Below, piece by piece: positions 10,807-29,514 of a DNA stretch of 64,000 bases. Where the stretch lies: positions 1 through 64,000 of the forward strand of contig CALKCL010000007.1 of assembly GCA_938082545.1 (NCBI GenBank), read 5' to 3'. The DNA is from an uncultured Gammaproteobacteria bacterium (GTDB taxonomy: Bacteria > Pseudomonadota > Gammaproteobacteria > Ga0077536). A program made the translations under genes and the position numbers. The notes under the pieces were generated by a model. It saw nothing but the letters and a program-made list of their open reading frames with translations, ran no database searches and had not been told where the DNA came from. The first letter of the stretch is position 1, and every line of letters starts with the position of its first letter.

Positions 10807-11466
10807 CTAAAAATCTATATCTAAAACAGCACTTAGATCGGATATCGCTTGACCCTCACTAATTACTTTAATCGTGCTCATCCCCATATCACGTGCTGGT
10901 TTAAGATTAACCCCAAGATCGTCCAAATAGACCACTTCCCTAGGATCAACTTGCATCCTATCGCATGCCAAACTGTAAATAGCTCGATCTGGCTTCCTAA
11001 TACCTTCTTTGCTTGATTCAATTACTTCGTCAAATAACTCTATCACGTCAGAAACCTCTCTGGCATAGTCCTCCGAACCAGACATTGCTAGGCCCTTGCC
11101 TGTCCGAGCGTTATTAGTTAAACAGACATTCATGAAACTTTCTTTACAGATTCTCAAAACGTCGACCATCCTAGGTCTGACAGTCTGTCTCCCAATAAGA
11201 GAAAGCACTTCGGCCCCGCGAATGGCGTGGCCCCGTGCATGGCTTTCCGCAAAAAAAAGCTCATCGAATGTTTCTGCATCAATTAAACTAGACTCGAGCT
11301 GAGCCCATGCATTATCTTGATGATTGACAGCATTTACTCCCCGAATAAAATCCAACGGTATTTTTTTTTCTCGTTCGAAGTCATTAAAAGAATCGAACGG
11401 AGATGTTGTCAAGACCCCACCAAAATCCCATAGTATTGCCTTAAAAACCATCCATACTTCCTTCAT
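10807..11466 (-). CDS. HAD-family hydrolase
   Basis: ILWDFGGVLTTSPF, CLTNNARTG, RKPDRAIYSLACDRM, YLDDLGVNLKPA. Confidence 0.88.
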   Translation of the reverse strand: MKEVWMVFKAILWDFGGVLTTSPFDSFNDFEREKKIPLDFIRGVNAVNHQDNAWAQLESSLIDAETFDELFFAESHARGHAIRGAEVLSLIGRQTVRPRMVDVLRICKESFMNVCLTNNARTGKGLAMSGSEDYAREVSDVIELFDEVIESSKEGIRKPDRAIYSLACDRMQVDPREVVYLDDLGVNLKPARDMGMSTIKVISEGQAISDLSAVLDIDF

Positions 11467-26793: not shown

Positions 26794-27390
26794 TCAAAAC
26801 GACTGACGGTTAGTTAAAGCTCTTGATAAAGTAGAACTATCAACAAACTCCAGTTCCCCTCCGACAGGAACTCCATAAGCAATACGAGTAGCAGATACAC
26901 CTCGTCGATTCGCCAGTTCTTTTAGGTAGTGCGATGTCGCTTCGCCCTCCATCGTAGTCCCGGTTGCGACGATCATTTCTTTTATTTGACCTTGGCTGAG
27001 TCTCGCGTCCAAAAAAGGAATACCGATACTTTCCGCAGAAATACCATCTAGTGGGGACAGGCGACCCATTAAAACAAAATAGTAACCTCTATAGCCGGGT
27101 GCCTGTTCTATGGCCAATATGTCTAATGGATTTTCAACAACACAGATCTGGGACTGATCTCGTGACATATCCTCGCATATCACACATGTATCGACTTCAC
27201 TAAACGTGCGGCAGGAAAGACATCTACCAATTTCATTTGCTGCCCGTTCCATCGCCTTAGCAAGAGTTCGAGCTTTATCTCTATTTTGTTCCAGCAAATA
27301 AAATGCAATTCTTTGCGCTGACTTTGGCCCGATACCCGGCAAATACTGCAAACGCTGAACCAGGTCGGTAAGTAATGGGGAAAAATTCAT
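26794..27390 (-). CDS. recR: Recombination protein RecR
   Basis: LPGIGPKSAQRIAFYLL, CRTFSEVDTCVICED, ATGTTMEGEATSHYL, GVPVGGELEFVDSSTLSRAL. Confidence 0.97.
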   Translation of the reverse strand: MNFSPLLTDLVQRLQYLPGIGPKSAQRIAFYLLEQNRDKARTLAKAMERAANEIGRCLSCRTFSEVDTCVICEDMSRDQSQICVVENPLDILAIEQAPGYRGYYFVLMGRLSPLDGISAESIGIPFLDARLSQGQIKEMIVATGTTMEGEATSHYLKELANRRGVSATRIAYGVPVGGELEFVDSSTLSRALTNRQSF

Positions 27391-27403: not shown

Positions 27404-27727
27404 CTAGAAAGGGAGCTTGATACCAGCAGGCAGTGCGATGCCTGAGGTAATCTGCGCCATCTTCTCGGCCGACAATTCTTCAACCCTCCGTATCGCATCG
27501 TTGACAGCTGCCGCAACAAGATCTTCTAACATAGCTTTATCTTCGGTAGTTGCTACAGATTCGATGTTTACGGCCACAACTTCTCGCTTGCCATTCATGG
27601 TCACTTTTACCATCCCCCCGCCGGACTCGCCATCAACACGACTCCCTGCTAATTCTTCTTGTACACGAGCCATTTCGCTTTGCATTTTTTCAGCTTGCTT
27701 CAACATATTTCCAAGGCCATTTTTCAT
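27404..27727 (-). CDS. ybaB: YbaB/EbfC nucleoid-associated protein
   Basis: LGNMLKQAEKMQSEMARVQEELAG ... GGGMVKVTMNGKREV; between recR and dnaX. Confidence 0.95.
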   Translation of the reverse strand: MKNGLGNMLKQAEKMQSEMARVQEELAGSRVDGESGGGMVKVTMNGKREVVAVNIESVATTEDKAMLEDLVAAAVNDAIRRVEELSAEKMAQITSGIALPAGIKLPF

Positions 27728-27778: not shown

Positions 27779-29359
27779 CTAAGTCTTTCGTGACACTGTT
27801 GTCATTACCGCATCGAATTTTTCGCTGAGAGCAACTACGGTGGGATCTTCACGAGCTTTTTTCTCAGCAATCCTCTGTGCTTCCAGCTCATTTGCTAGGG
27901 TTTGTTCAGATAGCGATAAGGCCAAACTATCACCTTCGGCGACACTGACTGAAAGCGTGACTCCTTGTCCCAGATAGGAAGAAACCTGTTGTTCTAAAGT
28001 GTCAACTGCCCTCTTTTGCATTAGCTTGTCATGCTTCGATGCAACAGATAGTTTCAAAGAATTTTGATCCAGTTCTACAAATATAGCGTGTCTCGCCAAT
28101 TCACGCGCAAGCCCGTTAATATCTAGGTTATTCACAACAGCATGCCAATCCTCATTACTGCAAAGTGCTACTTCTTTGGCCACTTCGACTTGAGCTTGGT
28201 CGGCTAGTTGCTCACTTTTTTTTTTAGAGACCTCTTCAATGGACTTTTCTTCAAGTTGGTTAGTAACCTCAGAAAAGTCTTTTTTTCTGAAGGCTAACAT
28301 GCGCAGCAAATTCATTTCAAAACCTGATTCCGGATCAGGCGTGATCTCAAGATCTTTTCGACCGACTAGTGCAATTTGATAGAATAATTGACAGTCTTCA
28401 GCAGACATCTGTCGTGCAAGTTCGATAATTTCTTCATCATTTTCGATTTTTTGATTTGCTGAGCCAAGCGCCTGAACTGTCGCGACCCTAACTAAAACAG
28501 ATAACATGTCGGTCAATACTGAGCTGTAATCAGGAGCAAATGCTCCAAAAGCTCTAGACGCTTTTATTAAATTGTGCCCGTCCCCATCAGCTAAACACTT
28601 CAACAGAGAAATAATATACGACTGGTCCACAGCTCCAAGCATTGCTAAAACATTATCCGTCTTAACTGCTCCACCCCCATGTGCTATTGCCTGATCAAGG
28701 AGACTCAGAGCATCACGCACGCTACCTCCAGCATTCTTTGCTATCGTGACGAGTCCATCTTCTTCGAACGGTATCCCTTCTAAATTCAATATTTTTGCTA
28801 GATAGTCAGAAATTTCTGTTTTCTCAACTTTAGAGAGATTCAACTGCAAGCACCGTGATAGAACAGTTACAGGCAACTTCTTAGGATCAGTAGTGGCGAG
28901 TAGAAATTTTACGTGAGGAGGAGGCTCCTCTAAAGTTTTTAAAAGAGCATTAAACGAATGATTAGAGAACATGTGGACTTCATCTATCAGATAAATCTTA
29001 TATCGGCTAGAGCTAGGTAAATATTGAACGTTATCTAGCAAATCACGGGTCTCTTCGACTTTCGTCCTCGACGCCGCGTCTACCTCCACTAGATCGACGG
29101 AGTGGCCGCCGTCTATTTCTCTACAGGAACCACATGAGCCACAGGGCTTACTAGTCACGCCTTTCTCGCAGTTTAGTGCCCGAGCGAGCACTCTCGCCAG
29201 CGTTGTTTTTCCTACCCCTCTGGTACCAGAAAACAAATAGGCATGGTGCATCCTTCCGCTATCTAGCGCATTGACTAATGCGCGCAAAACGTGGGATTGC
29301 CCTATTACCTCATCGAAAGATGTTGGTCTCCATTTTCGCGCCAGCACTTCGTAGCTCAT
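27779..29359 (-). CDS. dnaX: DNA polymerase III subunit gamma/tau
   Basis: YEVLARKWRPTSFDEVIGQSHV, GTRGVGKTTLARVLARALNC, Cys4 zinc module CEKGVTSKPCGSCGSC. Confidence 0.97.
   Translation of the reverse strand: MSYEVLARKWRPTSFDEVIGQSHVLRALVNALDSGRMHHAYLFSGTRGVGKTTLARVLARALNCEKGVTSKPCGSCGSCREIDGGHSVDLVEVDAASRTKVEETRDLLDNVQYLPSSSRYKIYLIDEVHMFSNHSFNALLKTLEEPPPHVKFLLATTDPKKLPVTVLSRCLQLNLSKVEKTEISDYLAKILNLEGIPFEEDGLVTIAKNAGGSVRDALSLLDQAIAHGGGAVKTDNVLAMLGAVDQSYIISLLKCLADGDGHNLIKASRAFGAFAPDYSSVLTDMLSVLVRVATVQALGSANQKIENDEEIIELARQMSAEDCQLFYQIALVGRKDLEITPDPESGFEMNLLRMLAFRKKDFSEVTNQLEEKSIEEVSKKKSEQLADQAQVEVAKEVALCSNEDWHAVVNNLDINGLARELARHAIFVELDQNSLKLSVASKHDKLMQKRAVDTLEQQVSSYLGQGVTLSVSVAEGDSLALSLSEQTLANELEAQRIAEKKAREDPTVVALSEKFDAVMTTVSRKT
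28216..28225 (-). promoter_or_regulatory. A10 slippery tract in dnaX (candidate programmed -1 frameshift or transcriptional slippage site)
   Basis: Minus strand GAA GAG GTC TCT AAA AAA AAA AGT GAG. A -1 shift after the third AAA reads AAG TGA (Lys, stop). An SD-like GAGG lies just upstream. Confidence 0.65.
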
Positions 29360-29407: not shown

Positions 29408-29514
29408 GGTGGCTATTTCTAGGGCTACCATGCATCCAGTTAATGCTACCGCTGCTCCCTTCCAGGCCTGACGGGGTTTACATCGCTAAACCATGGGCCT
29501 TCAAAATAGCCACC
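29408..29514 (-). ncRNA. ffs: Signal recognition particle RNA (4.5S, small bacterial type)
   Basis: Minus strand contains CCCCGTCAGGCCTGGAAGGGAGCAGC (SRP core motif). Terminal stem GGTGGCTATTT / AAATAGCCACC closes a ~107-nt hairpin. Sits immediately upstream of dnaX. Confidence 0.9.

Follow-up and report, generated by a model that had tools for sequence, protein, structure and literature searches.

A conserved A10 or A11 tract in dnaX as a candidate signal for two DnaX proteins in an uncultured gammaproteobacterial genus

Introduction

The window analysed here, a stretch of 64,000 nucleotides from an uncultured gammaproteobacterium (contig CALKCL010000007.1), carries a dnaX gene with ten consecutive adenines inside its open reading frame. 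The question was whether this run acts as a signal by which two DnaX proteins are made from one gene and, if so, whether RNA polymerase or the ribosome would slip on it. The dnaX signal of E. coli consists of the A_AAA_AAG heptamer, an upstream SD-like element and a stem-loop, whereas slippage of the Thermus type results in mRNAs with a variable number of A residues and in tau and gamma proteins at a ratio of about 1:1. For Thermus thermophilus dnaX, transcriptional slippage was described on an A9 run (Larsen et al. 2000, as cited in PMC1088944 and PMC5009743).

The dnaX gene and its alternative products

The gene, the tract and the stops behind it were located as follows.

27779..29359, minus strand: dnaX, full-length tau-like product of 526 aa (ORF; NCBIfam PRK07994 and dnaX_nterm above cut-off; Pfam domains I-III and tau_5)
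28216..28225, minus strand: A10 tract, codons 379-381 and the first base of codon 382 (read directly)
28212..28214, minus strand: TGA stop of a 382-aa product, reached after a +1 nt insertion or a -1 ribosomal slip
28204..28206, minus strand: TAG stop of a 384/385-aa product, reached after a 1-nt deletion or a +2 insertion

The minus-strand sequence at the tract (gaaGAGGtctctAAAAAAAAAAgtgagcaactag) reads TCT AAA AAA AAA AGT GAG at codons 378-383, the A10 beginning at codon 379 of the 526-codon ORF, and direct reading thus bore out the tract as given in a first-pass annotation of this DNA. The -1 frame reads AAG TGA at the end of the A10, and either one additional base or a -1 slip leads to a protein of 382 aa ending in ...SKKKK*, which agreed with the earlier claim of termination after one extra Lys. 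A product absent from that annotation, of 384 aa and ending in ...SKKKVSN*, follows from the loss of one base, while the gain or loss of two bases gives 385 and 381 aa, respectively. All changes by other than a multiple of three bases therefore lead to stops at 381-385 aa, and the truncation always falls at one place.

The surroundings of the gene were also recorded. A bacterial small SRP RNA (RF00169, 49.4 bits) lies directly upstream of dnaX at 29414-29505 on the minus strand. The genes ybaB/ebfC (27404-27727, minus strand) and recR (26794-27390, minus strand) come after dnaX, an arrangement shared with E. coli.

The protein was divided by Pfam and by an AlphaFold2 model, built from 22 homologues, into the following parts.

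28292..29359, minus strand: clamp-loader domains I-III, residues 1-356, retained in the short form (PF13177, PF22608, PF12169)
28172..28276, minus strand: disordered linker, residues 362-396, which holds the tract (the sole internal segment with pLDDT <50 in the AlphaFold2 model)
27800..28162, minus strand: alpha-binding domain V, residues 400-520, missing from the short form (PF12170)

The ATPase, the lid and domain III were assigned by Pfam to residues 21-356, and the tract residues 379-381 fell inside the only internal low-confidence stretch of the model. This layout supported the first-pass claim that the 382-aa form retains the ATPase and clamp-loader domains I-III. The accompanying claim, that a tau-specific region is lost, held for domain V only, as the DnaB-binding domain IV (PF12168) was not detected in the window DnaX by a Pfam search that finds it in E. 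coli DnaX. Since domains I-III are kept and domain V is lost, the short form is predicted to be a whole motor subunit of the clamp loader that lacks the tether to the polymerase.

Conservation within the genus

The sample from the genus comprised six genomes, five of which contained dnaX. All five genes carried the tract, as A10 in the window, G001 (UBA4457), G002 (SI072_bin20) and G004, and as A11 in G005. The conservation check set by the first-pass annotation, absence of the tract from close relatives being named there as its refutation, was thereby run and passed. The DnaX proteins of the window, G001 and G002 (clade A) were 97-98% identical to one another, and those of G005 and G004 (clade B) were 56-61% identical to clade A. 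The linkers of the two clades could not be aligned except at KKK, and the sequences flanking the tract were unrelated. Even within clade B, where G005 and G004 differed at 23 of the 63 linker residues, the tract was retained.

The tract starts in codon phase 0 in clade A; in clade B one genome has phase 1 and the other phase 2. Both alternative frames closed within three codons behind the tract in all five genomes (after 1 and 3 codons in clade A, after 3 and 1 in clade B), against a background, in coding sequence of this genus, where about 8% of codons are followed by stops in both frames at a distance of five codons or less. The alternative frame and its nearest stop differ between the clades, so only truncation is conserved and not the exact product, which counts against the reading proposed below. 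The comparison strongly supported a predicted gamma-like short form from dnaX. The tract was absent from other genera of the family and from the nearest named gammaproteobacteria outside the genus; the order-level search gave the same genomes as the family-level search. Phase variation by DNA slippage was also considered and found to be unsupported, dnaX being in frame in every assembly of the genus.

It was proposed that the A10 tract is probably a selected recoding signal, at which slippage of RNA polymerase would make two DnaX proteins from one gene. In this scheme, read from sequence comparison, RNA polymerase would slip on the A homopolymer and produce mRNAs with more or fewer A residues. 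Those of the templated length, or longer or shorter by three, would be translated into the 526-aa tau-like protein, while translation of those in either other frame would end 1-3 codons further on and yield a gamma-like protein of 381-385 aa, which would have the ATPase and oligomerization domains I-III without the polymerase-binding domain V. We infer that slippage takes place at the tract, that RNA polymerase rather than the ribosome would be the main slipping agent, and that the short protein may enter the clamp loader.

Signals for ribosomal frameshifting

The same short form could be made by a programmed -1 ribosomal frameshift at A_AAA_AAA, with termination after one codon in clade A or three in clade B. 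Such an in-frame heptamer, with a -1 stop behind it, was present in all five dnaX genes of the genus, and a ribosomal-type signal was found at a comparable gene position in E. coli and at two loci of other gammaproteobacterial families (L201 and L299). One upstream element was considered as well.

28231..28234, minus strand: GAGG, SD-like and probably incidental (GTGG in the 97% identical L005, absent in clade B)

The first-pass annotation had placed this GAGG at a plausible stimulatory distance. The motif was found in two of the five genes (the window and L004), being replaced by GTGG in L005 (G002) and missing from L006/L007 of clade B, and the claim was not supported. The A_AAA_AAG heptamer was absent from all dnaX genes of the genus, where only A_AAA_AAA occurred. 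The folding of the downstream sequence gave z values of about -2.1 to +1.1 against shuffles, most windows being no more stable than the shuffled controls; no hairpin was shared, and the lowest value (~-2) was not common to the relatives. By the same approach all three parts of the signal were seen in E. coli K-12 dnaX, and the best hairpin z values were -2.4 for E. coli, -3.7 for L201 and -5.4 for L299. Both tRNA-Lys(CTT) and tRNA-Lys(TTT) were found in G000, G001 and G005, and the possession of two tRNA-Lys is a difference between Thermus and E. coli that bears on the choice of mechanism (PMC5009743). In E. coli, moreover, shifting is weaker at A_AAA_AAA than at A_AAA_AAG (PMC5009743).

As GAGG is not conserved, A_AAA_AAG and a conserved hairpin are missing and two tRNA-Lys are present, slippage of the Thermus type fits better than frameshifting of the E. 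coli type. Of the two parallels drawn in the first-pass annotation, that with Thermus was supported and that with E. coli was not. Slippage by the polymerase was further favored by the long homopolymer, its varying phase and the stops in both frames, all of which it would need; for a -1 ribosomal shift these are in excess, a seven-base heptamer requiring neither 10-11 A residues nor stops in the other frame. Against the slippage reading, runs of A provoke less slippage by the RNA polymerase of E. coli than runs of T do (PMC6260861). A ribosomal origin of the short form was regarded as rather unlikely.

A joint action of both processes on the same A10/A11 tract, RNA polymerase slippage and ribosomal slippage each contributing, was considered improbable. 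The sequence fits both, and the -1 or insertion product is the same either way.

Control runs and abundance of long A runs

For comparison, 12 A8/A9 runs that lie in genes other than dnaX in this genome were traced into the relatives. In the close relative G002, nine of the 12 still had their full length. None kept A6 or more in clade B, the best being A5, whereas dnaX keeps A10/A11 there; the genes carrying the control runs were 36-78% identical between the window genome and clade B. A neutral A run should thus have decayed at the divergence of clades A and B, and the intact dnaX tract points to selection for its retention.

A test for chance based on the abundance of such runs was rejected as uninformative, A9-A10 runs not being rare, and it was retention that proved informative. 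Four sites containing A9 were found in the window against 3.7 expected, and six A10 sites in the genome. Because A9-A10 runs are common in this genome, the length of the tract proves nothing by itself; what is unusual about the dnaX A10 is its location inside an essential gene together with its retention. The remaining A10 sites in the genus were mostly intergenic or close to ORF ends, and no ORF-borne one was common to both clades.

The genome-wide statistics were based on about 212 kb of G000. Sense-strand runs in about 184 kb of the genome's ORFs, a sample partly picked for containing A10, showed no depletion relative to synonymous shuffles (7 against 6.4 for A9 and 2 against 2.2 for A10). 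It has been argued that where a genome shows no run depletion, its RNA polymerase may be little prone to slip (PMC1088944). The absence of A9-A10 depletion in ORFs speaks against efficient slippage, although the argument is weakened by the position of four of the nine A9/A10 runs of the ORF sample at ORF ends. In a separate observation, the counterpart of the window gene 10810-11466 in G002 (C14:36430-36705, L194) had an in-frame TAG, possibly due to a pseudogene or an assembly error.

Distribution in the class

A class-wide sample of 195 dnaX tails was inspected, the linker being defined as the region within 70 codons of domain III. A run of A9 or longer was present in the linker of eight of the 195 tails, belonging to six families including this genus, while dinucleotide shuffling gave an expectation of 1.5 and a maximum of 5 in 100 shuffles. 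Only one of 190 tails had such a run outside the linker. Both alternative frames stopped within five codons in five of the eight linker-tract tails, compared with a background of 3% of linker codons. Four loci with short open frames (L019, L022, L023 and L024) were rejected as two-ORF-like dnaX, the frames ending at contig ends or at an N stretch and not by natural disruption.

Two genera of another family (L307/L308, the loci of L288/L300), with DnaX proteins 53% identical, kept an A9/A10 run at tail codon 57-58. In a further pair (L310/L311, genomes G308 and G155, 83% identity), A9 was kept in dnaX genes of 69-71% GC. Outside the tract, the 71% GC dnaX of L311 used AAG 13:0 for lysine and CAG 24:0 for glutamine; the tract itself reads CAA AAA AAA ACA. 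Judged by this codon usage, selection at the L311 tract clearly acts on DNA or RNA and not on amino acids, and the A9 of L310/L311 is probably the survey's cleanest example, at the sequence level, of a slippage signal in dnaX. The tract of L203, from another family, was not found in close relatives, which counts against the slippage reading.

That no recoding occurs, and that the tract simply reflects a linker rich in lysine in a genome that is moderately AT-rich and uses AAA for 68% of lysines, is very improbable: the chance of AAA AAA AAA given KKK is about one third (AAA fraction 0.68) and A9-A10 runs are not depleted in the coding sequence, yet none of the 12 comparable runs survived the same divergence, KKK/A10 is conserved although the surrounding linker is not, and the parallel lineage has AAA and CAA of its 71%-GC gene in the tract only.

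Signals of the E. coli kind were found in the class as well. L201 and L299 combined A_AAA_AAG with a strong hairpin, and L222 carried A9G with a hairpin. With A9-A10 tracts in several families and A_AAA_AAG with a hairpin in L201/L299, both designs exist within the class. We lean slightly towards the view that gammaproteobacterial dnaX genes have repeatedly gained and lost two interchangeable signals in the linker between domains III and IV/V, either an A9-A11 slippage tract or A_AAA_AAG with a hairpin, the gamma-like form being conserved and the mechanism variable.

In addition, the GC-rich dnaX genes of L093 and L095 had A_AAA_AAG at tail codons 66-72, with a second run of seven A residues within a few bases and a small hairpin. 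The -1 stop in these genes came only 9-38 codons on.

Discussion

The dnaX gene of this genus resembles that of Thermus in its single ORF for tau with an A run of nine or more (A10/A11 in all five genes), in the closure of both non-zero frames by stops shortly after the run, in two tRNA-Lys for AAA and AAG, a trait that is suggestive rather than defining, and in having no evident ribosomal stimulators. It differs from it in the host, a gammaproteobacterium, in the A10/A11 length and in that slippage is here predicted from sequence. The position differs too, the tract lying at about 72% of the gene length and directly behind domain III, whereas that of Thermus lies at seven-eighths. With E. coli the genus shares the gene, the operon order dnaX-ybaB-recR and a predicted short form with domains I-III, and in the window the -1 frame likewise ends after a single codon (after three in clade B). 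Unlike E. coli, it has no A_AAA_AAG, no conserved SD-like element, no stem-loop and two tRNA-Lys, and no domain IV was detected in its long form. Two-ORF dnaX genes with A7-A10 tracts occur in Chlorobi and others (PMC3711429). A long A tract is predicted to act as a frame switch here as it does there; in those genes, however, the shift is needed for tau, whereas the zero frame here is open for 526 codons and encodes tau.

Slippage and frameshifting at dnaX are already established (PMC5009743, PMC1088944, PMC3711429). A literature search covering open-licence papers found no survey of single-ORF A-tract dnaX genes. What could appeal to specialists is that two signal types alternate within a single class.

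The cellular importance of the short clamp-loader protein was long disputed. A homopolymer that mutation should erode has been kept here amid changing surroundings, which suggests that these uncultivated bacteria benefit from the short form. Annotation that takes such genomes at face value gives the long DnaX product only. The survey also suggests that different decoding errors lead related bacteria to one product, which would make dnaX a test case for the origin and replacement of such signals.
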